Positions 1,479 to 26,801 of a stretch of 64,000 nucleotides of DNA are shown here, one piece after another. Source of the stretch: Candidatus Hydrogenedentota bacterium (GTDB taxonomy: Bacteria > Hydrogenedentota > Hydrogenedentia > Hydrogenedentales > JAGMZX01). Made by a program: the position numbers and the translations under genes. The notes under the pieces were generated by a model. That model did not search any database and was not told where the DNA came from. It worked only from the letters and a program-made list of their open reading frames with translations. Positions within the stretch are counted from its first letter, which is position 1, and each line of letters opens with the position of its first letter. The DNA lies in the NCBI GenBank assembly GCA_029556545.1, contig JAKQEQ010000187.1, positions 1-64,000 of the forward strand, in the 5' to 3' direction.

Positions 1479-1557
1479 TACGGCTTCGTCCTCCCGCTTA
1501 ATCAATAATACTATATCGAATCTCGACAGAATACTCAAGATATTATCCCCGCCCGAT

Positions 1558-2097
1558 TTAGGGCGAGATTTCCAGCACCTTGCTCTTCTTGTATTTCGAG
1601 GAATAGACGGTGCATGTGCCGGCCGCCATGTCGATGTCCTGAATCTCGTATTCCTCAAAACTGTCGCCCAGGTCAAACCACTTGGTCGCCGACAGGGTCC
1701 GGATGCGGGCACGCACCTTTCCGGGCACCGGTTCCTGCAACTGCAGTAACTGGATGTCCCACCGCTCGCCCTCTTCGCCCGGGCGGCCGCTGCCGGGCGC
1801 CGCATGGAACCAGAACGGGTTGCGATCGATTAACGACCCATAAGCGCCGGGCGGCCTGCGGGGCGGCCCCTTGCCTCCAGGTCCAACGCCCTCTGGTCGG
1901 TCCGGCGGGACAATCTGCCGCTCCTGCGCATCGTCTGGAAGGACGTTGCTGGGGAGGATCAACGGTTCTTGTGTCTCTTCGACCTTCTCGAACACCTGCC
2001 GGACCCGCATCCCGAGATAGACGAGCATTATGACAAGGATGAGCCGCTCCTTGTTGAACCAGAGCCATTTGGCGATTTTACGCACCCGGTCGTTCAT
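1558..2097 (-). CDS. PilP-like inner-membrane lipid-free connector
   Basis: A 179-aa protein starting at ATG 2097. It has a short basic cytoplasmic head, one membrane helix at about residues 17-32, a Pro/Gly-rich linker and a beta-rich C-terminal domain (about 105-178, including the KWFDLGDSFEEYEIQDID region). Helix, linker and small beta domain is the layout of PilP and GspC homology-region proteins, which couple the inner-membrane assembly platform to the secretin. It has no lipobox, unlike proteobacterial PilP. It lies between the PilO-like gene (26 nt upstream) and the TPR/STN gene, the canonical pilP position. The call is mainly from layout and order; sequence identity to PilP is not obvious by eye. 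Confidence 0.5.
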   Translation of the reverse strand: MNDRVRKIAKWLWFNKERLILVIMLVYLGMRVRQVFEKVEETQEPLILPSNVLPDDAQERQIVPPDRPEGVGPGGKGPPRRPPGAYGSLIDRNPFWFHAAPGSGRPGEEGERWDIQLLQLQEPVPGKVRARIRTLSATKWFDLGDSFEEYEIQDIDMAAGTCTVYSSKYKKSKVLEISP

Positions 2098-5418: not shown

Positions 5419-6807
5419 TCAAGGCGACGTCGCCCCGTCCGGGTCGCTGGGCAGATCCATAACACACCGGAATCCGTAGTCCTTGCGTGCGGCATCCATC
5501 CGGTCAAAATGCCGCCGGGCGCAACGGGCCTCGAAGCGCTGGGTGAGGTACGACCCGCCACGCAGCACCCGATACACTTGCCCGTAATCCTTTGTAATGA
5601 GTTCATTACCCGGATAGGCCTCGTACCAGCTCGAAGTCCACTCATAGACGTTTCCCGCCATGTCCAGGCACTTGTACGGGGACGCGCCGAGCAGGTAGCG
5701 TCCACTGCGCACCGGCTTGCCCACCGAGGATTCTTCCACATTGCAGAGCTGTTTGTCGAATACGTTGCCCCAGGGGTACTCGCGTCCGTCCGTGCCTCGG
5801 GCGGCCTTCTCCCATTCCGCCTCGGTGGGCAGGCGCTTTCCGACCTTGGCGGCATAGTCCATGGCCTGGCTGAACGATATGCCGGTCACGGGAAAGTGGT
5901 CCTGGCCTTCAGGGTAGAGATGGAGCGGATAGGCCTTGCGGTATTCGATGTTCGTGATCTCCTGCCGGTCGATGTAATAGGCCTCGAGATGGACCTCGCG
6001 CTGGGGCGCTTCGTCCGGGGCGCCGCCGTTCTGCCCCATGAGGAACGGCCCGGCCGGCACGAGCACCATGCCCTCGGGCGCCTCGCCGGGGAGCATCGTG
6101 AGATCGACCTTCCGGTCATCGTTCGGGCCAAGGACGACGACTTCGTCCGCGCGGAGGTAGCCGCCCCGTTGGACGGCGACGGTGTAGGTGCCGGGCGCGA
6201 GTTTGAAACGGGCGGGCGACTTGTCGGCCTGGCGCTGTTCGTCAATCCAGATCGTGGCGCCGGTGGGGCGCGACATGACGGTTAGGGTGGCCTGTAGCGG
6301 GGACAACTGATGGGTGAATTCGTATTGGTAATTGGCCTCGACTTCGAGGGTTTTCTCGGCGGGTAGGAAGTTCTCGTGCCGCACGACGTAGGTGTGTTCG
6401 CCGATCGGGACGGCGACTCTGTGGATCGGGGTCTGGCCCAGCGGCTCATCGTCGAGGGTCACTTCGGCGCCTGGCGGGTCCGATTTCAGCGTGACGAAGC
6501 CGACGAGGGGCTTGAGCGTGACCGTCTTCGTTCCGTTTTCACCCGCGACCAAGGACCATGTCGCGTAAGTGCGTTCGTGCCGATCAAGCGTAAACATGAC
6601 CGTGGTCTTGCCCGGTTCGAGACTGGTCAATCGCAGCGGTGTCACGCCGCACTCCCGGCTCTTGATCGTTACAGCGGCTCCGCTCGGTTCGCTCTCAATC
6701 GTCACGGCCGCGTTCATGGGCGTCTTGGAGGCGCCGCATCCCGCCAACAGCACGAGCAGGAACGCGGCGGCCCAAGGCCGCTCGCATCGGCCTATGCACG
6801 AGAGCAT
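5419..6807 (-). CDS. PEGA-repeat lipoprotein with C-terminal SUMF/FGE-sulfatase domain
   Basis: A 462-aa lipoprotein: signal peptide ending in lipobox LAGC with Cys24. Three PEGA-type repeats follow at about 33-100, 100-170 and 172-240, with the typical SEPSGAAVTI, SDPPGAEVTL and SRPTGATIWI openings. A SUMF domain occupies about 244-450 (MVLVPAGPFLMG, RLPTEAEWEKAARG, YPWGN, MAGNVYEW, VLRGGSY, GFRC). The final region has one Cys (FEARCARR) but lacks the partner Cys found five residues upstream in true formylglycine-generating enzymes, so I infer a binding or structural role. Start ATG 6807 has GGAGG at a good distance. PEGA domains are known from surface and secretion-linked proteins; its place inside the filament locus suggests an envelope accessory. 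Confidence 0.85.
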   Translation of the reverse strand: MLSCIGRCERPWAAAFLLVLLAGCGASKTPMNAAVTIESEPSGAAVTIKSRECGVTPLRLTSLEPGKTTVMFTLDRHERTYATWSLVAGENGTKTVTLKPLVGFVTLKSDPPGAEVTLDDEPLGQTPIHRVAVPIGEHTYVVRHENFLPAEKTLEVEANYQYEFTHQLSPLQATLTVMSRPTGATIWIDEQRQADKSPARFKLAPGTYTVAVQRGGYLRADEVVVLGPNDDRKVDLTMLPGEAPEGMVLVPAGPFLMGQNGGAPDEAPQREVHLEAYYIDRQEITNIEYRKAYPLHLYPEGQDHFPVTGISFSQAMDYAAKVGKRLPTEAEWEKAARGTDGREYPWGNVFDKQLCNVEESSVGKPVRSGRYLLGASPYKCLDMAGNVYEWTSSWYEAYPGNELITKDYGQVYRVLRGGSYLTQRFEARCARRHFDRMDAARKDYGFRCVMDLPSDPDGATSP

Positions 6808-6979: not shown

Positions 6980-9892
6980 CTATTCCTCGCCTCGCACGAA
7001 AATCTTGAACGGCTGCTCGTCGCCTGGGTCGCCGCCCGGTCCGCCGGCTCTTCCTTCCGCGGCGCCGCCTTCGGGAATATACACGGTGAACGAAATAGTC
7101 GCGGGCGTATCATCCAGGGTCGGCGGCGGATAGCCTTCCCCGAACACCGCGACCGCGCGGAACAAATAGGTCCGCGTGTGCGCCCGCTGCGCTTCATCGC
7201 CCAAGACGATCCCCGCGTCCGCGCGCAGGCGTAAGATTACCGTCTTCTCGTTGTCCGGCACGCGGATTGCGTCGACTCCGACTTGTGCCCCATCTTCGAA
7301 CAGCTCCCAGTTGACAAACCGGGGCGCGGTGAGTGTTGGGGTTTCGACGACGATATCAAATTGGGCCTCGACGTGGAGACCACTGTTCTCCGAAGGCAAT
7401 GGAATCCGCGTACTCGTACCGAAATCGCGCATCAGATCGCCGGCGTCGTCCACATGCCAGAAGTGTGCCGTGACGATGGTATCGATCTGCGCCGCGCCGC
7501 CGCGATTCAACCAGTGTTCGTAGGCAATCCGGCGGCTCTCGGGAATGGAGAAGCCCGAGAAGCTATTGCCCGCCAGCGGCCCCGCCTGGTGCACGTTGCC
7601 CGCCTCGTCCGCGCCCATCACGGTGATCAGCATGCGCTTGTTCTTGTACTGATCGTTATTGAGGATCGTGTTCGGGATCGTGACGCTCTTGAGGCGGTCC
7701 CAAGGGGTCCACGGCCCGACCGCGGCCCATTGTGCGGATCCGGGGCCTACTCCGCCACCGACGGACCACAACCGGTAGGAGAACAGGGGATCGGATGGGC
7801 TCGCGTTGCTCGGCGCGGCGCCTTGGCGGTCGAGGTCCCAGGAGAACGATGCGGTCGAAGTCGAGGTCGAGGTCATTTTCGTGCCCGGGGCGAACGGCAT
7901 CCACCACAACTCGAGTGAATTGCCGCTCTGGGAACTCACATTGCCCGCCCGGTCCATGGCCGCGAAGCGCCACTCGATGTTCCAGTCATTTGCCTGCGCG
8001 CGATTGTCCGGAATGCCGGAGACCGTCCACATGGCGTCGAGTTCGCGCGCGCCCGGACCGGCCAGAAGGAAATCCGCCATGACGGGGTCGTCCGGTTCAA
8101 TGCCTTTTGTGTGCATGAACCGGCCGACCCAATAGGGCCGGGGGACGGTGTCCGACGGGTTAAGCAGGTCGCCGGCGGCGGCGGTGCCCGAAGCGGCCTC
8201 GGCGATGGCCCCGTCAAATCCGGCGACGACGATATTCGCGCCTTCAGGCGGCGGGTCCTCGAACCGGGCGACGACGGTAAACCCGAGCGGTCCCGGGCCG
8301 TTCAAGTACATGGCCGCGTTTCCAAGCGTGGTCGTGGCATCGACGAGGACCACGCCGTTTGTCGGGGTGAGCGATTGCGCCGGGGGCCAGTCGCCGGGGA
8401 ACGGGCTGCCCGTGTCCGACGATGCGAGGAAGACGTCGCTGCTGCCGATGATGAAGCGGTCGGCTGTGGCGTCCGCGGGGATTTGGAGGCGGGGGGGCAT
8501 CGTATCGAGGACGAGCAGGCGGCTGTTCAGCAGCGCCTGCGGCGCCACGCTCCCCGGGTCGGTATTGGCTCGAACGCCGTACACGTCGGGGCCGTTTCGG
8601 AGATAAACGGTGGCGTGACCGTCCAGGACCACGTTACCGAGGGACGTGCTCTGGAGCGTGAAGGTGGCGCGCCCGACGCGGACCGCCGTCGGGTCGGTGA
8701 CGCTTCCGGGGTCCAGGGAGAGGGGCAGATCGAGGGGGCCACCCAATAAGTTCAACGGATCAAATTGTCTGGTCTCGGGCACGAGCAGCACGGAAGCGTC
8801 CGCGCCGAGGTTTCCGATGATCACGATCTCGAACACGGCGCCTTTGCCTATGTAAAGGCGGCCATCGCCGTAACCGGCACCGGTCGGGCCCGAAAAGAGC
8901 GCGTATTGGGTGTCGACCCAGACCATGTCGGTAACGCCGCCGCCTTCATGGTCGGCCCCAACCTGCGGGTCGTCCTCGACCTGCGCGGCGAAGCGCGGCT
9001 CATACTCGAAATCATACGTTTTATACGGCTCGGCGGCACCGGGAAGCGATTCGAGCCCCGACGCCGGAATGCCCGTTGCCAAGTCACCCGGCCATCGCAT
9101 TGGCGTAGCCAGGTTGACCGTCGCTTCGATACGGCTTTCGATCAAGCCCGCGGTGTCGTTGTTGTTTTCCTCCGAGACGCAGTATCGCGCGGTGAGCACA
9201 CCGCCCGTGTTCGGGGTCAGCGCGTTTCCGGCGTTACGGTAGAAGAGGCACGCAATCGCCTGGACCTCGCCGCCGTTCACTTTGATGGCGTCCGATTCGC
9301 CGTCGATAAACGTGGACTGCACCACTACCACGTTGCCACCGGTCACGTCAAGCGCCGCATCCTTGCTCCCGGTGAACACGCTGTTCGCGATGACGCACGT
9401 CGCGCCGTTGAAACTGAGTCCGGGACCGCTGACCGAGTCTTTCACCAGACAGCGGTTCAGGACGACGTTCGCGAGGGACCCGGTAACGCTGATGCCGGCC
9501 GAGCGCCCGCCCTTGATGGTCAGACTCTCGAAAATGACCGTACCGGCCCCCATGATGGTGAAAACGGGGGTTACCAAGCCGCTGTTGGTGACCACGACAT
9601 TGTGAGGGTCCTGGAGACAACTGCCGGCAATGGTCAGCCGCTTGTTGGGCTGGAGCAGGTTGATCTGGATACCGGAGGTCTGGAGGAACGGGTCCGCCGC
9701 GTCGCAGTCATCCACTTCGAGCGTGATCTTGATTTCGGAGGACAGGCTGGCGACGGCCTGCGTCACTGCCTCCGTCAACGTCAGCGGGCCGTCCGGCGAC
9801 ACGGTGAGTTCGAGTTGCCCCAGGGCGCCGGGCGTCCAGGCAAGCAAACAAGTTACAGCGCATAAGGTTATGCGCGACAGTGCTCCACGCAT
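6980..9892 (-). CDS. Secreted right-handed beta-helix protein
   Basis: The chosen start is ATG 9892 (MRGALSRITLC), preceded by GAGGAG at 9 nt; longer frames upstream lack such a site and would bury the signal peptide. The product is 970 aa with a signal peptide ending at PGALG-Q. Residues about 25-270 contain repeated short strands with alternating hydrophobic residues and Asn/Gly turns (VVLNRCLVKDS, CVIANSVFTGS, VVVVQSTFIDG, VQAIACLFYRN), typical of parallel beta-helix (pectate-lyase-like) proteins. The remaining 700 residues are beta-rich and unassigned. No catalytic site was recognised. It lies in the filament locus between the giant K-like gene and the PEGA lipoprotein, so it may be a surface partner or substrate of that machine. 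Confidence 0.8.
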   Translation of the reverse strand: MRGALSRITLCAVTCLLAWTPGALGQLELTVSPDGPLTLTEAVTQAVASLSSEIKITLEVDDCDAADPFLQTSGIQINLLQPNKRLTIAGSCLQDPHNVVVTNSGLVTPVFTIMGAGTVIFESLTIKGGRSAGISVTGSLANVVLNRCLVKDSVSGPGLSFNGATCVIANSVFTGSKDAALDVTGGNVVVVQSTFIDGESDAIKVNGGEVQAIACLFYRNAGNALTPNTGGVLTARYCVSEENNNDTAGLIESRIEATVNLATPMRWPGDLATGIPASGLESLPGAAEPYKTYDFEYEPRFAAQVEDDPQVGADHEGGGVTDMVWVDTQYALFSGPTGAGYGDGRLYIGKGAVFEIVIIGNLGADASVLLVPETRQFDPLNLLGGPLDLPLSLDPGSVTDPTAVRVGRATFTLQSTSLGNVVLDGHATVYLRNGPDVYGVRANTDPGSVAPQALLNSRLLVLDTMPPRLQIPADATADRFIIGSSDVFLASSDTGSPFPGDWPPAQSLTPTNGVVLVDATTTLGNAAMYLNGPGPLGFTVVARFEDPPPEGANIVVAGFDGAIAEAASGTAAAGDLLNPSDTVPRPYWVGRFMHTKGIEPDDPVMADFLLAGPGARELDAMWTVSGIPDNRAQANDWNIEWRFAAMDRAGNVSSQSGNSLELWWMPFAPGTKMTSTSTSTASFSWDLDRQGAAPSNASPSDPLFSYRLWSVGGGVGPGSAQWAAVGPWTPWDRLKSVTIPNTILNNDQYKNKRMLITVMGADEAGNVHQAGPLAGNSFSGFSIPESRRIAYEHWLNRGGAAQIDTIVTAHFWHVDDAGDLMRDFGTSTRIPLPSENSGLHVEAQFDIVVETPTLTAPRFVNWELFEDGAQVGVDAIRVPDNEKTVILRLRADAGIVLGDEAQRAHTRTYLFRAVAVFGEGYPPPTLDDTPATISFTVYIPEGGAAEGRAGGPGGDPGDEQPFKIFVRGEE

Positions 9893-9932
9893 CGTCTTCT
9901 TCTCCTCTGTCCATGCGCCGAGGCTCAGTCCT

Positions 9933-9951
9933 GCACAGCCGAGGGCTGTGC
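9933..9951. other. Small perfect hairpin between two genes
   Basis: Arms GCACAGCC and GGCTGTGC (9933-9940 and 9944-9951) enclose a 3-nt loop in the 136-bp gap between the giant K-like gene and the beta-helix gene. No T-run follows. It could be an mRNA-stabilising or processing hairpin rather than a terminator. Confidence 0.5.
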
Positions 9952-10028
9952 CGCACACACCCTAATTGTGCCATGTTTTCGGCCCAATCGGGGGGCGCGC
10001 GGCCCCGAGCCTAGGGCGCCACGGGCGT

Positions 10029-13000
10029 TTACGGCGACGGGCGCGGCGATCTCCTGACGTAGACCGTCCGCACCTTCGATTCCGCCGTGACCACGAACTC
10101 GTCATCGCTTCGGTAATTGATGAAGCCGTCGCCGTCCATGTCGAGGCCGTAGCCCGACTGGGCCGTCACAATGATTTCAAATATGTCCGAGCGGGTCGTG
10201 GTCAGGTTTGCGATGCGTCGGAACCGTTCCTGAACTTGATCGAAGCGGAGTGCGGGGTCGCCCTCGTTGCTGAGCGGGAAGATACCGCGCGGGTCGAGGC
10301 GGTCGTCCGGCGGGAATACCGGATGGAGAAACGCGTTACGGTCAATCGCCATGTCGCCGGGCGACCGGTAGTAGCGCCCGTCGAAGTGCTCGGGCCGGCC
10401 CTCGAGCAAGAGCCCGGTCAACTGGAGCGACGCCCTGCGCTCAGGTGAAGATCCGGGACCGTCCTTCAACCGCACGTAATTCTCGAGCGCCGGGATGCCG
10501 GCCGTTTCCGGGGTCAGGCGGTACGGCGGTACCGACTGCTCACGAGCCATTATCGTAGGTGAAGGCCAAGCCATACCCTCCGGGACCGACATCGTCGGAG
10601 GATCAACAACATCCGTTGCGCTCACAGGCGTAACCGCGTCGACGATGCCGGGCAGTCCCATGAGCGGGCTGAACGGGTCATTTCTGTCGGTATTGCCGCG
10701 CCGTTGAAGTTGTAGTCCGGCTGTGTTCACGTTGACGCGGCCCGCGGTGCTCCGGCGCGGGGCAAGAACCACGTGGGTCAGCATGACGGGCTTCGCCGGC
10801 GGCGACAGACTGAGGACCCGCAACGCGAGGTAGTTGTCTCTGACTTTGACAACCTCCGGCTGCCAACCGTCATAGCCGTACAGAATATAGCCGCTAGTGT
10901 CGGGACACAAGAACGGCAGTTTGACTCCCCACGAAGTGGGGTCGTTTACGTCCATGGCGGCGCCAGTCTCCGCGCGACTCGTGTGGACCTCGATCTTGAA
11001 GGTCCAATCATTTGTTTCAGTGCTCGGTCGAACGCCATCCCAATAGGGGTCCGGGAGATGGCGGCCCACTTCCACCGTGCCCAGCGTTTGTCCGTTTACG
11101 TCAAATGCCTCGGTTTCGGCCAGCAGCGGCTCTCCGATCCAGGGCGGCGGCGTGACCCGCGGGTCCACCGGCAAGCTTGAGAGACTGGCGGGCACGACGG
11201 CGCGAGCCAAACCATCGGCGCGATTGAGGGCTTCGCGCAGGCCCGGAAGGAAAGTACCGATATACAGGACATACTCCCCGTTTTCCAGGCCGTCTTCGGG
11301 CCCCCACTCGAAGAGCGCCTCTGGATCGCGCGAAGTCGGATTCTTCGGATCATATGCCTCCGCTCGGTCCACCACATATGCGACGACACGTTTCTCCGCC
11401 GGCCACCGCTCGACAAAATGGCCCGGGGGATAACCCGCGCTGAACACCGGCCAGTTCGAGTTCCCTTCAGGCCAGAACAGGCCATCGCGATTGAACACCG
11501 CCGGAAATTGCGGCAATGCAAATCGGCTGCCACCCGCTGCCGCCGTATAGGTCACTGATACCAACGGCTCACCGGGAAATTCGAAGAGGTAGACCGGCGC
11601 CCAAGCGTTCGGTAGCCCTTGCGGACGCCACTGGTACATCGAGTTCAAGTCCGCCTCACTAAAATCGCGGGGATGCGGTCGGATCGGCCGAAATTCGGCC
11701 TGGCCGACGGTGAGCACGAGCGGTTGGGCCGCGAAGGCGTCCACGGCTTCGAGGAACAGCGGCTCGGTGGTTGCACCCTCGCCGGACTGGCCGAGGAGCG
11801 CCGTGCGCAGGGTTGTGTCCGCGCGCGCGTTCGTCCCGGCGCCCAAAATCTCGTTTACGGGGCTTGTGCCGGTGATCCAGCGCAGCGAAGGGTCGAACAG
11901 CGCCGGATTGAACGGGTCGAACGGGTTGAACAAGGGCAACTGGAAACTCATGCGCGGCACGTTCATCAGGTCGCCCGGCGACGCGAAATGCCCGTCGCGC
12001 ACCGCCGCCTTCTCGAAGCCCCAATCGAAGTTCGGCGTGCGCCGTTGCGCCACCGGCAGGTCGGTGCGCCACGGCAGGTCGAAATCCGGCGCCGTCACGA
12101 ATTGCCGCGTCCCGTCCGCCTGTTCCGGGTTCTCGAAGAAGCGCGCCGCGGTGTTCATGCGCAGCGGCGTCCCGGAGATAGCATGGCGGAACAGACGTTC
12201 GTTCTCCGCGAGCACGAGGTCGGCATCCCCGGACGGCAGAGCCGGGTCCAGGGCAAATCGGTAACGATAATTGTACACCGGGTTTTGTTCGCGGTCTATC
12301 GTTCGGTACGGCCAGACATTCTTGTTTACGCGCCGCTCCCAGAGCGCGGGGCTCTCGGCCCAGTCGTCGTAGTTGCCGTCCGTAGCCTCCCACCGGTTCG
12401 AGGTACCGAAACGGTCCCCGTGATACAGCGGGTGCTTCCGTTCGAGGGACTTGTAGAAGTCGAGCCCCATCTGGTTTTCCGGCCACAACGTCGGATAGGC
12501 CGGGTGCAGCAGCGCACCGTAGGGGCACGGGGCCACGTCGTCGATGGTCCGGTTCACGATGTCCTGCTCGTTGTAGGTCAACCGGTCCGCCACCCGGCCC
12601 AAGTCCTCGGGGCCCTCGTAGAGGGACACGATCACGTTGTCGCCGGGATACCAGCGCCGCTGCGCGAAGGCCTTCCACGCGGGCGGATCGAGGTCCGACC
12701 CGATGTAGGGAGCCGCGATGGAAGGTGTGCTCGCGTCAAATCCCAGTCTCGCTATCCATCCCTCTTGGAAGAACGTCCCTTCAGGTCCAGCATCCAAGCC
12801 TTGCCCGTCCAGCATGGTCATCGCGGCTTTGTAAATGTCTCCGCCGACCAGGAAAAATACCAGCGGAATCGTTCCTGGGCGATACGAGCCCGCGCGCACG
12901 TTCCGGCCCTCGTCAATGCCCTCGTCCGGTTCGTCGATGACCCCGCTCAGGTCGTTGTCCACCATGTCTCTAGCGAGGAGGCCAGGCAGGATTTCGAGTA

Positions 13001-16000
13001 CTGAATCACCCGTCGACGGGTCCTCCCGCCGCACGAGATACGGCCCATCCCCGTCGTTGTCTATGCCGTCCCACTCGGGATAATTCGGGAATATCCCGCC
13101 CTGGAGGACTAATTGCGCAATGCCCGACTCCAAGACATTTAGCGCCTCTGTCGCCACCGGGATTATACGGTCCCAAGGCTTGTCCGGATCGCCGACGGCG
13201 TCGCTTGAGCGCAGCTTCGCCTCGATAACCGATGCGGCCGTCGGATTGAGCAGGGTTCCGCGCGTTCCATCGGTGAGAAACGACGCGGGGATATCATTAA
13301 GCCCGTCGCCATCGCGGTCAATGTAGTCATACAAGGACGCCTGCCAAAGAACGCCGTTGTCTGCGGCATCCTGCGCGGTCCAAAGAGGGTTGACATACGC
13401 CGGGCGCCCGAGAGTATCCGTGACGACCAGCCGGTCGAAGACGTTGCCCGTGACATCGCGATAGGATGGCGGAGTGTCCAACCACCTATCGACAAACGGG
13501 GGTACGGTCACATTCGCCAGGAAGAATGGCTGAAGAACGCCGGGCATGTAGCCGCGCGTCAAACCTATCCCGTTGCGTTGCGTAATCGAGGCAGGACGGG
13601 GGTCGGTCCACTGGAAATAATCCCATTTGCCGAAATTTTCGTCGCCCTTCGCCACCGGCGTGAGCAGGACCATGCCTTTCGGCGCGATGACGCTCCCGTC
13701 GGGCACCGTCAGCGTGACCTTGTTTAGGTCTGGCTCGATACTGCCGGCATCCGAACCCTCGGCGTTCGGGATGCCGACGACCAGTTCCCAACCGCTGATG
13801 TCCACCGGCTCGTCGCTCACGTTGACCAGTTCGACCCATTCGTGATTCGGCTCCTGGCTGAAGTCGAAGAAGTTGACGTTCAGCGCGGGGATGTCTTCCT
13901 GGTTCGGGTCCAGGTTCAAGTCGAGCATCAACGCGACACACAAAGCCCAGCCGGGTATCTGGACAGGATTGTCGTTTTCGTCCAGAAACGCCCGCGGCGG
14001 CGGCGGCACGAGTACGGTGTGCGTCGGGCCCGCAAGCGAAGCGAAAGGCGTATCGAGCAAGAACCCCTGGTTCAACGCCTCTTCGTAATAGCCGATGAAA
14101 CCGGCAGCCGCGGCGTTGCTGCTGAGTTGTTCGCGGCTTCCATCAAGGAAGACCCAACCCGGCGGTCGGCGGTCCGCGCCCAAGCCCATTTCCGCCTGGG
14201 TAACCGGCGCGAAGAGTGAGGGCGGCGCGCCGGATCCCAGCATGTTATTTTGCCAATTCCTCCACCAGTCTCGTTGTTCGTTTGACAAAGGCGGCGGGGG
14301 CCGGGGCGCGGAGAATGCCGCTATCGATGTCACGTCAGCGAGGATAGTGGGCCCCTGCGGCTCGATGCCGCCGTCCGGAGTCAGAACCACCGGCACGTAC
14401 TTGATCGCGTAGCGCAGCTGGTTATCCGCGGTGATATCGAGTTCGGCGCCGGGCCCGCGGGTGACGTTCAGGGTCAGGTAGTAACGGCCTTCCGGCAACC
14501 CTTCCGAAGCCACAAAGAGCCATTCGACGGCGTTCGGCACGTTCACGAGGGGCTCAAAGGCGGAATTCGTCGGCAACATGCCGCCGGTGTACTGCCACGA
14601 GTCGTTCGTCAGGTACGTCGTCTCGCCCAAGACCGCACCGGCCGGCGGCGCAAGCCAGACGGGGACCCGTCCTTGCGTGCTCATGTCCCTTCGCTGCATG
14701 ATGAACTCGGGCAGTTGGCTGCTGAGCGGGGGCGCGTTCAGGGGGAAACCGTCGAGGAATTCGGTGAAGGGCGTCGGGTCGAGCAATGGGTTATAGGTTT
14801 CGCCGAAGTTCGCGAGGTCGGGCGTGGCTTCGGCCTCGACGCGGCGGACGGGTCGGACCATGATCTCGTTGATCCGAATGGCTTCGAGTCCGGAAACGGT
14901 ATACGAGATGCGGCGTTCCTCAGGTCTCACACCGTCAGTGACAAATCTCGCCCACCATTGATCCTTGATTTCAAGAGGCGGGTCCTGAACGGTCTCGCGG
15001 ATTTCCTCAACATAGTGCTGCACGCTTCCGAGATGAATGAGTTCATCGGCCGGCACCCGCCGGCGCGGGCGCTCGACATATTCAGTCCTTTCCGTAGTGA
15101 GTACGGATCGGGCGTGGTCTCGGTCGCGGTTATCGACGATATCGACGGCGGTCTGGAGCGCGGCGAGTACGTCGTCGGCGGGAACGCGATGGAAGGGCGC
15201 GAGCGTGGCGGGGACAACGGGATTGCTTGCGTCGCCCGTGGCCTCGAAGAGGAGGCCGCCGCGCCGTTGTCCGGTGACATTGTCAATCCACTCCGGGGCG
15301 AGGACATCGGTGTCGGCCTGTGCGAGCCCGGCGGCGAATCGATGTCCATCGGGGGTCCTGAATTCCTCGGTGCGGTATTGGGTCAGGGTGAAGTCGCCGA
15401 AGAGGAGGAGCGCCGCAGCGATTTGCTGGGGCGTGGCGTAGTTGTAATCGAGCTTGTTCAGGGTCTTGATGCTGTTCAGGGCGCGGACGTATTTGAGGTT
15501 GCGGTCCGCGCCGTGAACCGAGATGTGATTCCTGAGGGTATTGAACCTTCCAGCGCCGATCTGGTCATCGATCATAATCTGTTCGCGGGTGCGCAGGGCG
15601 CGGTCGCCGAGTTCGCCGAGGGGGTCGACGACGCTGTCGCCGGAGTTGTCGATGCCGTCGCGCTCGGCGAGGAGGTTGCGCAGGGGGCGGAACCGCTGGA
15701 GTTCGGCGGGTTCATCGATGCCTTCGAATGCGCCCAGTCGGAGGAAGTAAGTAGCAAAGCCCTGCGCGATTTCGTTCACGATATCCTGCTTGAATGCGCC
15801 GAGGTGATCTGTCGACTCTATCCGCCCGGTCAAGTAATCGAGGGCGAAGGTACTCAGCGGTGGGAGGCGCAGCCCTTCGTCTATGAGCGGCTTCCCAAAC
15901 TTGTCGATAGTGGCGTTGTCGTTAACGCGGTTCAGGGCGAGGATCAACGCGTTCGCGTTGTCGTCCACGCGGCCATAACCCGGAAAACTCACGTCAAAGT

Positions 16001-18266
16001 CGAACTCGTCCCGGGGTCTCTCCTCGTCCGCGGCATATGTCACTTGCAAAGGCACATTGGGCCCGGACACGCCGGTGAGGAGTCCCCACAATCGGAGGCT
16101 CAGAGCCACGCCGACATCCGGCAGCATGCGGGTCTCGTACTCGGAAGTGGTGACGCCGTCTCCGAACGCGCGTTTGAGATCGCCTTGGGTCGGGGGCGAG
16201 TCGGGGAGTATCGGGTTGTAGACATGCGCGCCAGCGACGTTGACGTTGACTTTGCTCTGTTCGTCGTTGATGAAGATGGCGGCGCGGCCGGCGATGACGC
16301 ATGCGGGCTCGCCGGTCATGGTGATGCGGAGGCGCTGGAAGGCGTTCAGGTCTGGATCGAGCCACGATCCGTCGGGGAAGGGGTTCCTCTCGTAGAGGTT
16401 GGGGAAGTAGGCCTGGGTGTTGATTTCGTTGTAGCTGAGGCCGATGGCGGCCTCGATGCTATTGAGCATGTCGCGCGCCGCGGCGCGTGCGGCGGGGTTG
16501 CCGAAGGGCAGGCCAAGCCACGCGAAGGCCTGGTCTTCGCAGGCGGCCACGCGATCGGCCTCATCCGCGGGAACGAGCGGCGCCCAGTAGTTCGTGCAGG
16601 CCTCGAGTTTCTCTTTCCAGTGGTTCAGGTGCCGCCACTGGGGCATGGGCCAGGGGGCGAGGTAGGCGTATACGGCGTTGTTGTTTACGAGGAGGTCGTA
16701 ATCGTTGTCGATGGCGTCCACGTCCACGTCGGACATCATGAGCGTGATGTACGAGTCGTCCGGGAAGCGGAGCCGTATCGGGATTTGCGGCGGCAGGATG
16801 ACGGCGGCCGGCGCGGCCCTGAACTCGCCGGGGTTGTCCGGGTCCGGGACCGGGATCATATCGCCTTCGTCGCCGACGATGCCGTTTCCGTTGAGGTCGA
16901 CGGGGATGCGCATGCCGGGCAACTGGGTGGCGAGCATGAAGCCGAGCTTGCTCTCCGGACGCGACGGCGCGACGGCGGTCCGCGGCGGGTTCAGCGGGTC
17001 GTAGACGGGGTCAAACTCGTAGGGCGGCTGGGCGGCCGGGTTGAGCGGCGAGTCGTCGCGATCGACGAGGCCGTCGCCGTCGTTATCGAGGCCGTCGTCG
17101 CCGGCGTAGTAGACGAAGAGCCCGCCCTCGATGGCCTCGTCCGGATCGAGGATGGGCTGGCCCGCGACGTCGAGAATGGGGAAGCCATCCGGGGCATGCA
17201 GATAATCGGAGAACTGGCCGTCCGGCGGATTATTGCCGTTGTCGTCGAAGGCGTTGTCCTGCCGCTCGTCGATCAGGCCGTCCAGGTCGTTGTCCACGCC
17301 GTCATTGGGGAAGTATTGGTCGATGGGGATGGGAATCCAGATCGAGTCCTTGAGGCCGTCGCCCGAGTTGTCGACGTCCGCCCAGAGGTCGACCTGTTCC
17401 TTGGCGTACGCGAGGCCGTCGCGGTATTCGGCGGGCAGCGGGGCGGCGGCGGGGTTGTTCGGGTCTTCGCGCCAGGGCGGCGGGAAATAGGGGGCGCCGT
17501 CCGGCATGGTGACGCGGCCATAGAGCCTGGGGGTGACAAAGGGGAAGTAGCGCGGGGGCATCAGATTGAGGAAATCGGCGTCTTGCTCAGCGTCCGCGTA
17601 ATAGAAGTAGCGATACGGGGAACTGGGATGGTCCAGCGGCACGGGCCTTCCGTCGGCGGTCATGAGTCCGGCGCGGGGGCGATTGATTGGATCGTAGAGG
17701 TTGTAGAGGACGGCGGTGAAGGGACGATCGTGCCCCCCGAGGTGCTCGATGCGGGGGATGAAGAGCCAGTTGCGCGTGCGGGGCCCGCGGTAGAGCGGTT
17801 CGTCGGGGATACCGTCGCCGTCCCAATCGACGTAGACGTCCTCGCGCCCGCCGCCCAAATCGACCTTGAAACTGTTGAGGTTGATCTCGGGGATACCCGG
17901 CGGTCCCGGCACGAGGGGATGCTTGCCGGCCCAAAGCGGGGCGCCCTTCCGGCGGGTCCACGGTTTGCCGACGAAGGCGGCGCCGCTGTAGATCGAGCGC
18001 CAGGGGTGGTCGGTCGAGGTGACCTCGGGGTGCTCGAGGAAGTCCCGGTTCAAGGTGGCAACGGCCATGGCGATGCCGGCGTCGGCGATGTACTCGACGC
18101 GGACCGTGTTGGTCACGTTGGTGGCGGTCTTGAGTTCGAGGCGGGTGACGGCGAAGAAGGTGAGCGCGATCGCGAGGAGGATGGTCATGATCGCGATGGC
18201 GATGATTAGGGCCGCGCCGCGGCGGGTATCCCGCCCGCCGTTATCCCCTGGAGACGTTTCATTCAA
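10029..18266 (-). CDS. Giant GspK/PilX-like minor pseudopilin with calcium loops and lamin-tail-like domain
   Basis: About 2,745 aa if translation begins at TTG 18266. The head, RRG followed by AALIIAIAIMTILLAIAL, is a class III signal anchor without Glu5, the hallmark of GspK tip pseudopilins. A VNVNTAG helix-hairpin-helix-like motif with a later LPGI (about residue 2510) is also GspK-like. In between are many Asp-rich calcium-loop motifs (DNDGDGLVDRDD, VDNDLDGLIDE, DGIDNDGDGP, YIDRDGDGLND) and a lamin-tail-like segment (EWVELVNVSDEPVDISGWEL) near residue 1475. GspK is usually 300-350 aa. It follows the J-like gene in G-H-I-J-K order. The start is uncertain: the frame is open upstream to 18689, an ATG at 18584 overlaps the J-like stop by ATGA, but that would add about 106 residues encoded by repeat DNA before the anchor. 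Confidence 0.8.
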   Translation of the reverse strand: MNETSPGDNGGRDTRRGAALIIAIAIMTILLAIALTFFAVTRLELKTATNVTNTVRVEYIADAGIAMAVATLNRDFLEHPEVTSTDHPWRSIYSGAAFVGKPWTRRKGAPLWAGKHPLVPGPPGIPEINLNSFKVDLGGGREDVYVDWDGDGIPDEPLYRGPRTRNWLFIPRIEHLGGHDRPFTAVLYNLYDPINRPRAGLMTADGRPVPLDHPSSPYRYFYYADAEQDADFLNLMPPRYFPFVTPRLYGRVTMPDGAPYFPPPWREDPNNPAAAPLPAEYRDGLAYAKEQVDLWADVDNSGDGLKDSIWIPIPIDQYFPNDGVDNDLDGLIDERQDNAFDDNGNNPPDGQFSDYLHAPDGFPILDVAGQPILDPDEAIEGGLFVYYAGDDGLDNDGDGLVDRDDSPLNPAAQPPYEFDPVYDPLNPPRTAVAPSRPESKLGFMLATQLPGMRIPVDLNGNGIVGDEGDMIPVPDPDNPGEFRAAPAAVILPPQIPIRLRFPDDSYITLMMSDVDVDAIDNDYDLLVNNNAVYAYLAPWPMPQWRHLNHWKEKLEACTNYWAPLVPADEADRVAACEDQAFAWLGLPFGNPAARAAARDMLNSIEAAIGLSYNEINTQAYFPNLYERNPFPDGSWLDPDLNAFQRLRITMTGEPACVIAGRAAIFINDEQSKVNVNVAGAHVYNPILPDSPPTQGDLKRAFGDGVTTSEYETRMLPDVGVALSLRLWGLLTGVSGPNVPLQVTYAADEERPRDEFDFDVSFPGYGRVDDNANALILALNRVNDNATIDKFGKPLIDEGLRLPPLSTFALDYLTGRIESTDHLGAFKQDIVNEIAQGFATYFLRLGAFEGIDEPAELQRFRPLRNLLAERDGIDNSGDSVVDPLGELGDRALRTREQIMIDDQIGAGRFNTLRNHISVHGADRNLKYVRALNSIKTLNKLDYNYATPQQIAAALLLFGDFTLTQYRTEEFRTPDGHRFAAGLAQADTDVLAPEWIDNVTGQRRGGLLFEATGDASNPVVPATLAPFHRVPADDVLAALQTAVDIVDNRDRDHARSVLTTERTEYVERPRRRVPADELIHLGSVQHYVEEIRETVQDPPLEIKDQWWARFVTDGVRPEERRISYTVSGLEAIRINEIMVRPVRRVEAEATPDLANFGETYNPLLDPTPFTEFLDGFPLNAPPLSSQLPEFIMQRRDMSTQGRVPVWLAPPAGAVLGETTYLTNDSWQYTGGMLPTNSAFEPLVNVPNAVEWLFVASEGLPEGRYYLTLNVTRGPGAELDITADNQLRYAIKYVPVVLTPDGGIEPQGPTILADVTSIAAFSAPRPPPPLSNEQRDWWRNWQNNMLGSGAPPSLFAPVTQAEMGLGADRRPPGWVFLDGSREQLSSNAAAAGFIGYYEEALNQGFLLDTPFASLAGPTHTVLVPPPPRAFLDENDNPVQIPGWALCVALMLDLNLDPNQEDIPALNVNFFDFSQEPNHEWVELVNVSDEPVDISGWELVVGIPNAEGSDAGSIEPDLNKVTLTVPDGSVIAPKGMVLLTPVAKGDENFGKWDYFQWTDPRPASITQRNGIGLTRGYMPGVLQPFFLANVTVPPFVDRWLDTPPSYRDVTGNVFDRLVVTDTLGRPAYVNPLWTAQDAADNGVLWQASLYDYIDRDGDGLNDIPASFLTDGTRGTLLNPTAASVIEAKLRSSDAVGDPDKPWDRIIPVATEALNVLESGIAQLVLQGGIFPNYPEWDGIDNDGDGPYLVRREDPSTGDSVLEILPGLLARDMVDNDLSGVIDEPDEGIDEGRNVRAGSYRPGTIPLVFFLVGGDIYKAAMTMLDGQGLDAGPEGTFFQEGWIARLGFDASTPSIAAPYIGSDLDPPAWKAFAQRRWYPGDNVIVSLYEGPEDLGRVADRLTYNEQDIVNRTIDDVAPCPYGALLHPAYPTLWPENQMGLDFYKSLERKHPLYHGDRFGTSNRWEATDGNYDDWAESPALWERRVNKNVWPYRTIDREQNPVYNYRYRFALDPALPSGDADLVLAENERLFRHAISGTPLRMNTAARFFENPEQADGTRQFVTAPDFDLPWRTDLPVAQRRTPNFDWGFEKAAVRDGHFASPGDLMNVPRMSFQLPLFNPFDPFNPALFDPSLRWITGTSPVNEILGAGTNARADTTLRTALLGQSGEGATTEPLFLEAVDAFAAQPLVLTVGQAEFRPIRPHPRDFSEADLNSMYQWRPQGLPNAWAPVYLFEFPGEPLVSVTYTAAAGGSRFALPQFPAVFNRDGLFWPEGNSNWPVFSAGYPPGHFVERWPAEKRVVAYVVDRAEAYDPKNPTSRDPEALFEWGPEDGLENGEYVLYIGTFLPGLREALNRADGLARAVVPASLSSLPVDPRVTPPPWIGEPLLAETEAFDVNGQTLGTVEVGRHLPDPYWDGVRPSTETNDWTFKIEVHTSRAETGAAMDVNDPTSWGVKLPFLCPDTSGYILYGYDGWQPEVVKVRDNYLALRVLSLSPPAKPVMLTHVVLAPRRSTAGRVNVNTAGLQLQRRGNTDRNDPFSPLMGLPGIVDAVTPVSATDVVDPPTMSVPEGMAWPSPTIMAREQSVPPYRLTPETAGIPALENYVRLKDGPGSSPERRASLQLTGLLLEGRPEHFDGRYYRSPGDMAIDRNAFLHPVFPPDDRLDPRGIFPLSNEGDPALRFDQVQERFRRIANLTTTRSDIFEIIVTAQSGYGLDMDGDGFINYRSDDEFVVTAESKVRTVYVRRSPRPSP

Positions 18267-18512: not shown

Positions 18513-18521
18513 GGGAACGCG

Positions 18522-18580: not shown

Positions 18581-19972
18581 TCATAGGCGCTCCCGGCGCG
18601 TCAACACGGACTGCATATCCCGGCCGGCGGCGGCGGGCACCTGGATTTCCATCGCGAACCAGCGCAAGAAGTCTTTCGAGTTGACCCAACGGCTCGGCGT
18701 GGCCACCCAGAACCCGGCGCCGATGAAGCCGGGCAGCCGGGGCGCGAGGGGCATGCCCTCGAACACCAGCGAGGGCGTCTGCGCGGAGAGGGCGGTCACG
18801 AGGCCATCGTCAATGCCATATAGCGACCCAACGTCAGGATTGAACACGAACGCGGTATAGCCGGGGATCAGCCGGACGTCGTTGAAATGGGGCGGCTTGG
18901 GTTCCTTGTTGACGGTGATCCAATAGGTGAACAGCGGCGGGGATCCGGACAGGTCGAATTCGGGCAGCCGCGGATCGTAGATGCCGAACAGGATGTTTTC
19001 GGCGAGGACGTAGTGCTCGGCTTTGGGGCGCGGATCGCTCGGATTACGCGGGTCGCCCCAGAAAGCGGGAAGCCCGGGCTCCCCGGCGAGCATGCGAATC
19101 CACAATTCGCGCCGCTTCGCCTGGATAATCCCGTTCACGTCATCATGCGAAAGCGCCCGAAGCGAAGCGTAGGCCTCTTGCTGCATGATCCGGCGCATGT
19201 CTTCACTGTCCCGGACGTTCTGCAGGACACCGGCCAGCGACTCGCTGTCCGCGGGCAACGCGTCAAAGGGCAGCACACGCGGGTTCACGCCATCGAGCAT
19301 TCCCAGATACAGGCGCAGGTTGTCTGAATCTCCGGAATCGTACCGGTCGAGGGCGGGCTCGATGCGGTCGAGCGTGGGCCAAGTCAGCCGCGTTCCGTTC
19401 GCGCGCTTGATCTCGAAGGTATCGAGGTCGGTGCGGCCCGGCTCGACGTAGCGCACGAGCGACTGCGTCACGACAGTAACGGAGTCAATGTCGACGATAT
19501 CGCCGCGTACGTCGCCGGCGAACACTTCCTCGAATCGACTTTGGAGCGCCGCACCGCCCTGATCCCAGGCGCGTTGGCGAAGGGTTTCGTAGGACTCGGT
19601 GTAGCTGCTCTGGTAACGGATGGAATCGACGGTGGGATGGGCGACGTAGGTGACGCGGGCGAGGCGTCCCTCGACAACGCCTACGAAGCTGAAGCCCTTC
19701 GGGCCGCCGTAGAAGGCGTAGTAGTCGCCGAATTCGCGGGCGGTGAACGCGCCGGCCAGGTCGCGTTCGAGTTGGGTCATGCTGCTGCGGGCGCGCTCGA
19801 AGGCCTCCTGGTTGACGTAGCCGGTGCGCACGGCGTCAATCGCACCGCTGAACAGGAGCGTAATGCCGGCCAGCAGGACGATGAAGATCGCCATGGCGAC
19901 CAGGATTTCGACCAGCGACATGCCGCGTTCGGCGGCACGCGCGCCGGCTATCGGCTCATTCCTTGTGTACAT
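18581..19972 (-). CDS. PilW/GspJ-like pseudopilin
   Basis: A 463-aa protein with a type IV prepilin head: basic leader to Gly17, then MSLVEILVAMAIFIVLLAG with Glu at +5, which should be cleaved by prepilin peptidase. Long mixed alpha/beta C-terminal region, longer than ordinary GspJ (about 200 aa) and closer in layout to PilW. It follows the tail-only gene with a 17-nt overlap, and its stop overlaps an in-frame ATG of the next frame (ATGA at 18584). Together with neighbours it gives the order G-H-I-x-J-K, matching the type II operon at 29-42 kb. Likely part of the minor pseudopilin tip complex. Confidence 0.85.
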   Translation of the reverse strand: MYTRNEPIAGARAAERGMSLVEILVAMAIFIVLLAGITLLFSGAIDAVRTGYVNQEAFERARSSMTQLERDLAGAFTAREFGDYYAFYGGPKGFSFVGVVEGRLARVTYVAHPTVDSIRYQSSYTESYETLRQRAWDQGGAALQSRFEEVFAGDVRGDIVDIDSVTVVTQSLVRYVEPGRTDLDTFEIKRANGTRLTWPTLDRIEPALDRYDSGDSDNLRLYLGMLDGVNPRVLPFDALPADSESLAGVLQNVRDSEDMRRIMQQEAYASLRALSHDDVNGIIQAKRRELWIRMLAGEPGLPAFWGDPRNPSDPRPKAEHYVLAENILFGIYDPRLPEFDLSGSPPLFTYWITVNKEPKPPHFNDVRLIPGYTAFVFNPDVGSLYGIDDGLVTALSAQTPSLVFEGMPLAPRLPGFIGAGFWVATPSRWVNSKDFLRWFAMEIQVPAAAGRDMQSVLTRRERL

Positions 19973-20348
19973 AAGTCAAGAACGACTCCAGGTGGCCGTC
20001 CGGCACGTAGGCCGAAAAGGTCACCTTGCACTTTAGGGGTGCGCCCGGCAGGCCCGCCTCGCGGTGAATCGAGTATTGCCAGCCGCGATACAACTCGTAG
20101 ACGCGCTCGATCTCGGCGAGGGAACGCAACGCGCTCAATTCAGCCCAGGGCCGCAGCCACGCGAAATCGGGGCCCGCGCCCTGGAGGAGCGCGTCGATTG
20201 GGGCGTCGCCCGTCGAAACGGCGGGCGCCGCCGCGCCGCCCGCGAGGAGATACACGAGCGCGCCGCCGATGATCGCGCCGGCGACCAATGCCAGCGCGAG
20301 CGCCGGCAACGGCGGTTTCGTCTTTTCCCGTTGCGCCTCGTTGGCCAC
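19956..20348 (-). CDS. Tail-only relative of the neighbouring I-type pseudopilin
   Basis: About 130 aa. GTG 20348 is preferred because AAGGAG ends 11 nt before it; GTG 20360 is the alternative but abuts that site. The N-terminus is Lys/Pro-rich followed by an ordinary membrane helix (about 18-38), with no Gly|FTLVE prepilin motif. The C-terminal 60 residues resemble the end of the gene immediately upstream: YELYRGWQYSIHRE ... KVTFSAYVPDG ... FLTYVHKE against YALYEGWRASVQRI ... RVTFSVRMFDG ... FVTYITQN. I infer duplication of the pseudopilin tail onto a different anchor. It could be a regulatory or capping partner that cannot be cleaved by prepilin peptidase. Not a recognised family. Confidence 0.65.
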   Translation of the reverse strand: MANEAQREKTKPPLPALALALVAGAIIGGALVYLLAGGAAAPAVSTGDAPIDALLQGAGPDFAWLRPWAELSALRSLAEIERVYELYRGWQYSIHREAGLPGAPLKCKVTFSAYVPDGHLESFLTYVHKE

Positions 20349-20369
20349 TGTTTCCGTCACTCCTTTTCG

Positions 20370-20423: not shown

Positions 20424-20828
20424 TCAGTTCTGCGTGATATAGGTCACGAATTCCTCGTCACGTCCGTCGAACATGCGCACGCTGAACGTGACGCGGTAGA
20501 GGTCGACGTCGCCGCCGATGCGCTGGACCGATGCGCGCCAGCCCTCGTAGAGGGCGTAGGCCTGCTGCGCCGTGGTCAAGGTCTTCAGGGCGTTCTCGGC
20601 GATCCAGCTTTGCAACTGCTGTCCGACGCCGCCGGCGCGCACTTTGCCCAGTTCGGTCTTGGCCAAAGACGCCACCACGGTCCGCTCGGCGGCCACGCGC
20701 GACTGCGACATGGACGCGGGGAACAACTGCATGATGGCGACTATGCCGACGGTGAGGATCGTGAGCGCCACGATGACCTCGACCAGCGTGAAGCCGGCGG
20801 CGTTGCGTTGTCGCATATGCGCTTGCAT
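20424..20828 (-). CDS. PilV/GspI-type minor pseudopilin
   Basis: 134 aa from ATG 20828, which lies 7 nt after the stop of the upstream H-type gene and has AGGA in front; a longer open frame exists but would precede the prepilin leader with unrelated sequence. The head MQAHMRQRNAAG|FTLVEVIVALTILTVG is a canonical type III signal with Glu5. The C-terminal domain ends in strands shared with the next gene. Length and position after the H-type gene fit GspI/PilV, which initiates the minor pseudopilin tip complex. Confidence 0.85.
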   Translation of the reverse strand: MQAHMRQRNAAGFTLVEVIVALTILTVGIVAIMQLFPASMSQSRVAAERTVVASLAKTELGKVRAGGVGQQLQSWIAENALKTLTTAQQAYALYEGWRASVQRIGGDVDLYRVTFSVRMFDGRDEEFVTYITQN

Positions 20829-20835
20829 GGCGGTC

Positions 20836-21672
20836 CTAAGTCCCTTGTTCGTCGAGTCGTGTGTCGCGAATGCGCGCGCGCCCCGTGCTACGGTATAACT
20901 CGAGGGGCACCGTCCGCAGTTTCGCGAGGGTGGCGGCATCATCATAGCGGTCCTCGACGGGCGCGTCCGGCCTCGGCGCCACGTGCAGGGTCACACGCTC
21001 GGGGCTGTCTGGCGCATGGAGGGCGCCCGACGGTTTGAATACGTGCGCGATGAACGGCGTGGTCGCCGTCGGATTGCGATTCTCGCCGTCCGGCCCGGTA
21101 CCTTCGAGGTAGGCGTCAATGATGCTCATGCCGAGCCTGTAGACTTGCTGCACGTCATTCGCGTCATCCGGCGGGGCGACCCGCGGCCGCTTATGCACGT
21201 AATAGGGATTGAACGGGGCCTCGGGATCGTTCAGCAGCACCACAGTGTCGCCGGGAAGCTGGCGAAACTGGCCTTCCACGCCGTCGACGGGCACGTACCT
21301 GCCGCTGTAAAGACCCGCCGACGGCGGCAATTGCCGCATAACAGCCACGTGCGTGATCACGCGCATGAACTGTCCCGTACCGCTGTCCATGATCGGCTCG
21401 GGGAGCGTCGCGTTATTTTGCGGGTCCAGGCTGATCGGGACGAAGTTGTCGAGACTGTAAACAACGGCGGTGTTGACGCGATGTGTGGCGGCATAGGCCC
21501 GCGCCCACTGCAGCGTGGTGTACAACTCGCGCGACGCGCTGCTCAGGTCCTCGCTCGGCATCATGCTCAAGAACGCGGGTACCGCGAGCACGCCGAGGAT
21601 GGCGAGGATCGCCATCACGACGAGGAGTTCCACGAGCGTGAAGCCGCGGTCTCTATCGCGAGCCATGCGCAT
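20836..21672 (-). CDS. GspH/FimT-type minor pseudopilin
   Basis: 278 aa. Leader MRMARDRDRG is followed by FTLVELLVVMAILAILGVLAVPAF, a perfect prepilin N-terminus. The next helix (SASRELYTTLQWARAYAATHR) matches the GspH/FimT pattern of an N-terminal amphipathic helix before a beta-sandwich. It is longer than typical GspH (about 170 aa), with loops rich in Pro and Asp. ATG 21672 or ATG 21666 are both possible. It is placed between the G-type and I-type genes, as in gsp operons. Confidence 0.85.
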   Translation of the reverse strand: MRMARDRDRGFTLVELLVVMAILAILGVLAVPAFLSMMPSEDLSSASRELYTTLQWARAYAATHRVNTAVVYSLDNFVPISLDPQNNATLPEPIMDSGTGQFMRVITHVAVMRQLPPSAGLYSGRYVPVDGVEGQFRQLPGDTVVLLNDPEAPFNPYYVHKRPRVAPPDDANDVQQVYRLGMSIIDAYLEGTGPDGENRNPTATTPFIAHVFKPSGALHAPDSPERVTLHVAPRPDAPVEDRYDDAATLAKLRTVPLELYRSTGRARIRDTRLDEQGT

Positions 21673-21729: not shown

Positions 21730-22578
21730 TCAACTGTAGAACCGCTGCCACGTGAAGCTCGGGTCCCAATTGTTGATGTCGTCACCGCCGCCCCAGAATT
21801 CGAGGTCCTGCTCTGGGTACTGCAACAGGCCCTCCGTAACGACGTTACGGTAAATCAACTGGCCGGAAATGAGATTGGCGCCGTAGGAATAGATGAACGC
21901 CACGCCGGGATTGCGCCCCGCCGGGAACCCGATATCATCGTTGTCCTCGTTCTTCGTGACATAGGCGTCCGTCTGGTCCGCGAGCGTTGTGCCGGGCAGC
22001 ACCCTGCCTTCCGGCGCGACGCGCTGATACAGGCGGTAAATGATCGGATTGGGCATGTCCACGCTGCCGCGGCCCCAGGGCGCCGGGAAAATCTGGTAGA
22101 GATTCTGCCCCCACGGGTCGAAACCGATTTCGAGATATGAGGTCCCGAGTTGCTTGGCCACTTCATTGCGAAGAATGTCTCCATACGGGAAGCCGAAATC
22201 GGGGTCCACCGCGGTGCGCGCGTTCCGCCCGGCGCGGAGCAGGGCGTAGAACGTGTTCGTGTAGATGCTCTGGATGCGCGCGAAATGGGCGGCGCTCATG
22301 GTCGCCTTGCCCTGGTGCACCGGAAACGCGCCGACCTGAGCCACCAGGAGGGCACGCACCTTATCGGGGTCGAGCAAGTCATTGAGACTGTTCCTCCCGA
22401 CGTCGGAGAGCATCTTGGCGAGTGCGGTTTCGATGCTCTGGATTTCGGCCTGGGCGCGGGTCATGCGGGCGCGGCCGATCCAGCTGACGATGTTGGGCAC
22501 GACGATCGAGGCCAGGATCGCGATGATCGCCATCACCACGAGCAGCTCGATGAGCGTGAAGCCTTGGTTCCGTTTCAT
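21730..22578 (-). CDS. GspG/PilA-type major pseudopilin of filament locus A
   Basis: 282 aa from ATG 22578 with AGGAGG at 9 nt. The short leader MKRNQG precedes FTLIELLVVMAIIAILASIVVPNI; cleavage would follow Gly6. The FDPWGQNLYQIF segment and a later FIYSYGANL correspond to the DPWG...SYGADG signature of GspG, but the calcium loop seen in the T2SS GspG of this window is not conserved and the protein is twice as long. The strong ribosome binding site and an own 69-bp gap are consistent with the major subunit. Function as the main subunit is inferred from position and motif. Confidence 0.85.
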   Translation of the reverse strand: MKRNQGFTLIELLVVMAIIAILASIVVPNIVSWIGRARMTRAQAEIQSIETALAKMLSDVGRNSLNDLLDPDKVRALLVAQVGAFPVHQGKATMSAAHFARIQSIYTNTFYALLRAGRNARTAVDPDFGFPYGDILRNEVAKQLGTSYLEIGFDPWGQNLYQIFPAPWGRGSVDMPNPIIYRLYQRVAPEGRVLPGTTLADQTDAYVTKNEDNDDIGFPAGRNPGVAFIYSYGANLISGQLIYRNVVTEGLLQYPEQDLEFWGGGDDINNWDPSFTWQRFYS

Positions 22579-25653: not shown

Positions 25654-25662
25654 AATCAGACC

Positions 25663-26784: not shown

Positions 26785-26801
26785 ACGACCCTCTCCTTCC
26801 T

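Follow-up and report, generated by a model that had tools for sequence, protein, structure and literature searches.

Genes of the locus

The window, by which we mean the whole stretch of 64,000 nucleotides analysed, comes from a MAG of Hydrogenedentota, a phylum barely cultivated and known almost only from DNA. Its minus strand carries an operon that reads, in order, PilB-type ATPase, PilT, PilB-type ATPase, GspF/PilC, G-type pilin, H-, I- and J-like pilins, a giant GspK-like prepilin, an exported beta-helix protein, a PEGA/FGE protein, PilM, a PilN/O-like protein, a small protein and a secretin. Nearly all pilin-type subunits are small; each must be extracted from the membrane, incorporated into a filament and passed through a secretin. 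The giant has a predicted mass of ~304 kDa and a pI of 4.5.

31170..32534 (-), ordinary GspK of the neighbouring canonical T2SS, 454 aa, our yardstick (PF21687 E 1.2e-16)
26802..28658 (-), second PilB-type ATPase with MshEN domain (TIGR02538 E 7.9e-190; PF05157)
25663..26904 (-), PilT-family ATPase (TIGR01420 463 bits, cut-off 319.1)
23911..25653 (-), PilB-type ATPase with MshEN domain (TIGR02538 E 2.7e-182; PF05157)
22648..23886 (-), platform protein GspF/PilC (TIGR02120 439.5 bits, over cut-off)
21730..22578 (-), major pilin-like protein, GspG/PilA type (TIGR01710 E 5.8e-13)
20836..21672 (-), H-like minor pilin, Verru_Chthon D-like (TIGR02596 E 4e-9)
20424..20945 (-), I-like minor pilin, Verru_Chthon B/PilV-like (TIGR02523 E 7.4e-9, TIGR02598 E 4e-6)
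19956..20360 (-), 134-aa membrane protein (C-terminal half resembles the I-like pilin, 34.8% identity, E 3e-10)
18581..19972 (-), J-like minor pilin, Verru_Chthon C-like, 463 aa, Glu5 present (N_methyl E 3.1e-5)
10029..18266 (-), giant GspK-like prepilin, 2,745 aa, TTG start (open frame and 19 full-length orthologs)
6980..9958 (-), exported right-handed beta-helix protein directly downstream of the giant (PF13229 E 6e-7)
5419..6807 (-), PEGA and FGE-sulfatase protein (conserved position)
3110..5182 (-), PilM, Amuc_1101-type (TIGR01175 over cut-off; NF045709 E 3.2e-73)
2124..3110 (-), PilN/PilO-like inner-membrane protein (by conserved position; no family match)
1558..2097 (-), small membrane protein between the PilN/O-like gene and the secretin (conserved position)
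3..1490 (-), secretin of the giant's operon, cut by the window and contig end (NF042912 Amuc_1098 E 1.1e-6)

The operon order is kept across relatives, in which the giant gene consistently closes the pilin cassette. Glu5 is present in the G, H, I and J pilins; the giant is the one pilin of the locus without it. The 134-aa membrane protein, whose gene adjoins that of the I-like pilin, has a non-prepilin N-terminus and no separate gene in the relatives examined. Downstream of the giant, relatives keep a large exported protein in the same place, ranging from 992 to about 1,970 aa; a lipobox-like signal occurs in two of these orthologs (L035, L039) and CHRD domains in another (L024). At the secretin position, relatives have longer frames with secretin-like C-termini. 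Elsewhere in the window, a second very large frame (44401-49866, 1,821 aa) carries a C-terminal IPT/TIG domain.

Type of machine

The adjoining canonical T2SS (locus B) contains GspC, a secretin with N0, the 454-aa GspK and a GspL just under cut-off; the GspC and GspL models found no match in the giant's operon (locus A), where PilT and PilM are present. At 23911-28658 the PilT gene sits between the two genes for PilB-type ATPases bearing MshEN, a known c-di-GMP-binding module. PilM and the secretin are closest to the Akkermansia Amuc_1098-1102 type (PMC10688800), being of Amuc_1101 and Amuc_1098 type, respectively, with two genes between them as in Akkermansia; this likeness covers PilM and the secretin, and none of the comparisons made ties a giant pilin to the Akkermansia cluster. 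Because the operon combines a PilT-family ATPase, two PilB-type ATPases with MshEN, PilM and an Amuc_1098-type secretin, and a real T2SS adjoins it, we conclude from the gene families that it probably encodes a type IV pilus-like machine. The T2SS-type pseudopilus proposed in a sequence-only reading of this DNA was not borne out: the operon families are of type IV pilus type, and the T2SS with its normal GspK is the neighbouring locus. A prepilin peptidase is encoded elsewhere in the genome. The genome is rich in such ATPases: the PilT family model matched 17 times in it, some matches being PilB/GspE cross-matches.

The machine might instead act as a secretion piston, with the giant as a tip receptor whose exodomain stays in the periplasm and collects substrates, perhaps the adjoining beta-helix protein. 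The T2SS HIJK tip complex binds secreted proteins (PMC10191384), and the downstream exported protein is conserved in place and variable in length. We nevertheless consider a secretory role unlikely, since a PilT-family ATPase is foreign to an ordinary T2SS and a full canonical T2SS lies next door.

Anchor and GspK landmarks

Four landmarks link the giant to GspK, and a further signature near the N-terminus is particular to its own family.

18033..18266 (-), leader, cleavage Gly17 and pilin alpha-1 helix, residues 1-78, no Glu5 (NF037980, TIGR02600, HHalign, model)
17958..18020 (-), family signature TSxDHxW..(F/Y)xG..xGKxW, residues 83-103 (kept in nearly all orthologs)
16239..16265 (-), GspK-type motif DEQSKVNVN, residues 668-676 (aligned to canonical GspK TISDEYGKINLN, HHalign E 2.3e-4, reversed control 0.36)
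10719..10739 (-), GspK-type motif RVNVNTA, residues 2510-2516 (aligned to GspK GKVNANTA, HHalign E 2.0e-4, reversed control 0.59)
10047..10208 (-), C-terminal strands TRSDIFEIIV...RTVYVRR, residues 2687-2740 (HHalign to the GspK C-terminus E 0.007, weak; reversed control 0.09)

The leader comprises residues 1-17, ending in TRRG with Gly last, and is followed after the cleavage site by AALIIAIAIMTILLAIALTFF. In all 19 aligned sequences, I, V, L or M and never Glu occupies the fifth position past the cleavage Gly, which confirms the class III anchor without Glu5 that had been read from the sequence. The pseudopilin helix that the same reading called for was predicted, as one long N-terminal helix of 67 residues (12-78). 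NF037980 matched the giant over the anchor stretch only (E 8.2e-8, 32.1 bits against a cut-off of 130, which the locus-B GspK with its PF21687 domain also misses, at 84 bits), and the TIGR02600 match was likewise limited to the anchor (E 5.3e-6, 24.6 bits against a cut-off of 332.3). We aligned the giant by HHalign to a profile built on 23 ordinary GspK sequences of the same order, using reversed sequences as controls, and the anchor matched with a probability of 96.7% and E 3.9e-10 (reversed control 0.006).

The anchor, DEQSKVNVN, RVNVNTA and the C-terminus stand in the same order as in GspK, and the C-terminal strands possibly close the pilin sheet. The VNVNTA/LPGI motif reported earlier is present, as VNVNTA at about residue 2511 and an LPG nearby, and is joined by the second motif at about 668. 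PF03934 had no match in the giant, and the PF21687 alpha-domain was never found in it, yet occurs in ordinary GspK proteins of 36 of the 40 same-order genomes. Since the anchor and the ordered landmarks match, PF21687 never does and the curated models reach the anchor only, we conclude that the giant probably works like a GspK without being filed as a GspK member. Of the GspK-like tip subunit originally suggested, what stands is a giant, order-wide, Glu5-less GspK-like pilin that ends a cassette of G-H-I-J-K type; by sequence, its homology to GspK is firm for the anchor only, the other three links being short and weak.

The weak homology past the anchor, and the absence of pilin features from most of the length, would also suit a membrane-tethered exoprotein whose prepilin leader serves display only, with no place at a filament tip, and which may be cut off and released. 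This is quite improbable given that the GspK landmarks continue in order up to the C-terminus and that the gene is fixed last in the pilin cassette.

Orthologs and integrity of the gene

Homologs of the giant were found in 36 of 40 same-order genomes, and open frames of at least 2,000 residues, some cut by contig ends, in 25 genomes including that of the window. The 19 full-length orthologs (2,006-3,072 aa) can be aligned with the window protein over its residues 17-2736, with identities of 36-46%. The best-conserved part is the following block, which matched no known family in Pfam.

12312..12716 (-), signature block WKxFxxRRxxPGDxV...SLERKHPxYxGDRFGTxNRWxATDGxYDDW, residues 1851-1985 (31 invariant columns in 21 sequences; no Pfam family)

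A genome_contigs scan of 84,980 species genomes found relatives of this block at 36 loci, only in this lineage; all are labelled Hydrogenedentota or lack a phylum name, with the sole exception of L078, labelled Rhodothermaeota. We attribute that label to naming rather than to occurrence in a second phylum, because the 662-aa frame of L078 corresponds to a 662-aa frame of a same-order genome (G028). As for shorter intermediates, three GspK-anchored proteins of relatives (762-804 aa) showed no blastp similarity to the giant, and a fourth mid-size candidate (768 aa) proved to be an N-terminal fragment ended by a contig edge.

The giant gene is a single, intact frame, open through 2,745 codons from 18266 to 10029. 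Although the frame is still open upstream of the TTG codon as far as 18689, we favour the TTG at 18266 as the start, because the upstream extension runs into the end of the J-like gene and contains a dispersed repeat. The repeat, in the spacer between the two genes (18285-18580), matches 87 places in the same genome on both strands and resembles a dispersed REP- or MITE-like element. GC3 lies between 0.69 and 0.91 in every 200-codon slice of the giant gene, high and even as in neighbouring genes. Despite split frames in some relatives (L059; G016), several genes joined by assembly, the outcome that the sequence-only reading had held against itself, or a spurious open frame in high-GC DNA can be dismissed with near certainty, because 20 single-frame sequences, all from independent assemblies, can be aligned over their whole length, GC3 is even along the gene and invariant columns span residues 17 to 2736. 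The single frame of about 2,745 residues is real.

Composition of the putative exodomain

Within the region between the landmarks we recognized one stretch of Asp-rich loops and a partial match to one known domain.

16347..17939 (-), Insert 1, residues 110-640, Asp-rich loops at about 147, 297, 325, 394, 457 and 517 (motif count, shuffles, conserved Asp columns)
13653..13856 (-), partial lamin-tail domain, residues 1471-1538 (Pfam PF00932 E 1.6e-5; orthologs)

Six DxDxDG loops were observed in the whole giant against 0.14 expected from shuffles, and many of the loop Asp residues are conserved across orthologs. Blocks 110-640, 640-1100 and 1560-1850 contain short stretches similar among one another, which we take to be Asp loops. 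The loop sequences suggest calcium binding. Where many calcium loops had been claimed, the loops are there and conserved, and their number by pattern is about seven to eleven. The lamin-tail-like domain held up in part: PF00932 matches the window protein over profile positions 17-70 of 109 only and below the Pfam cut-off (25.7 bits against a gathering score of 34.3), and 18 of 26 members in an alignment of C-terminal parts match at E up to 0.01 (best 1.5e-12). The signature block at 1851-1985 looked plausible by eye as the missing end of this domain and was set aside when Pfam gave no support. For the TSP3 and SAM-like domains also named earlier, no family model recognized either, and these words go back to motif resemblance.

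NCBIfam gave no match to the C-terminal part, PDB sequence profiles gave none to either part of the giant, and no ligand-binding domain was identified. The two AlphaFold models, predicted as single chains of up to 1,200 aa, were poor (mean pLDDT 49.3 and 55.1). The model of an ortholog's C-terminal part has two long strands, partly at pLDDT about 78, and we give both models little weight beyond the N-terminal helix and these strands. Foldseek returned no match at E <0.001 for either model; beta-sandwich and carbohydrate-binding-module matches of the C-terminal part were weak (best E 0.03) and were not used as evidence.

Comparison with known systems

The giant resembles GspK (XcpX) in its Glu5-less prepilin anchor, its last place in a G-H-I-J-K order, its DExxKxNxN and NxNTA motifs, its Asp-rich loops and its extra mass, which is apparently inserted inside the pilin fold. 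GspK has calcium sites (PMC6211770), and its alpha-domain is inserted in its pilin sheet (PMC8179133). The giant differs in its length (2,745 against about 300-460 aa), in not matching the alpha-domain model, in belonging to a PilT-bearing machine and in having an ordinary GspK in the same genome. Verru_Chthon cassette protein A (TIGR02600, a 1,296-position model) is likewise large and anchored, and its gene accompanies those of three small pilin-like proteins. The anchor of this model matched 17 of 19 family members (best E 1.1e-11), and the giant's neighbours gave matches to all three of the Verru_Chthon B, C and D models, below cut-off and over the N-terminal part only. The window protein, however, covers only the first 57 model positions and is twice as long, and the curated TIGR02600 cut-off (332.3 bits) was reached in none of the 40 relatives.

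Modular type IV pilins, such as PilB and PilC of Streptococcus sanguinis, CofB and ComZ, also carry a large module grafted on a pilin and displayed on a filament, and the giant has the pilin N-terminus and non-pilin domain (anchor and LTD) that define them; unlike in those proteins, its extra mass appears to be inserted within a GspK-like fold, between the first and last parts. Modular pilins commonly bind ligands, and the most extreme case named in a survey that counted extra domains and used another anchor motif has 860 residues (PMC8179133). With PilY1/PilC1 the giant shares only its proposed role, that of a large protein at the tip of a pilus that can retract; PilY1 itself does not belong to the pilins, and the giant has no PilY1 domain (PF05567). 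The comparison, an analogy only, is reasonable because PF05567 was found in none of the 40 relatives, in a genome search without a positive control.

Proposed role of the giant pilin

In known systems the tip complex is capped by a pilin without Glu5 (PMC10191384). Because known caps lack Glu5 and GspK already has an inserted domain, the giant is most simply read as a capping pilin that has larger insertions and sits at the tip of a retractable filament. We consider it probable, with moderate confidence, that the giant is a Glu5-less GspK-type tip subunit with a giant inserted exodomain, acting as the tip adhesin of a dedicated type IV pilus-like machine conserved through Hydrogenedentota. Insertions in a GspK-like sheet would have expanded to about 2,500 residues, made up of Asp-rich loops, a lamin-tail domain that is partial or interrupted, and further modules that are probably rich in beta strands. 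Prepilin peptidase would cleave the giant, which would then start the filament with the H-, I- and J-like pilins and be pushed out with it via the dedicated secretin. The exodomain, exposed at the surface, would serve at the tip as an adhesin that binds some ligand, one pilin thereby doing the job of the minor pilins and PilY1, and PilT would permit retraction of the bound tip. The data directly establish the gene and its conservation, the operon, the homology of the anchor and the missing Glu5, whereas tip position, exposure at the surface, and the binding of calcium and ligands are inferred, as is the adhesin or effector role suggested in the sequence-only reading.

We counted in favour of a tip adhesin the intact frame with 19 orthologs, the GspK anchor, the ordered landmarks, the position as sole Glu5-less pilin, the kept operon, the type IV pilus-type machine and the prepilin peptidase in the genome. 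Counted against it were the consistent absence of PF21687 from the giant, the short and weak links beyond the anchor, the poor models with no significant Foldseek match, the lack of a ligand-binding domain and the roughly 300-kDa tip that would have to pass the secretin. More tentatively, and at somewhat less than even chances, we propose for a phylum-wide type IV filament that the capping pilin is itself the adhesin, with ~2,500 inserted residues replacing PilY1, that it is the largest pilin-type subunit described, and that its machine is distinct from the T2SS of the same cells.

Implications

We found no paper in the open-access literature on pili of Hydrogenedentota, lamin-tail pilins or a giant pilin. 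What is new is a conserved tip-type pilin of 2,000-3,000 residues, compared with the 860-residue extreme of the survey and the 1,296 positions of the Verru_Chthon A model. The giant looks like a pilus tip subunit enlarged six- to eightfold, and this enlargement probably lets the pilus grip something with its own tip protein. If this is true, a tip subunit of ~300 kDa would test the upper size of tip cargo for the pilin pathway and would show that a tip adhesin can also arise by another route, independent of PilY1. It would also offer a first handle on how Hydrogenedentota touch their surroundings.
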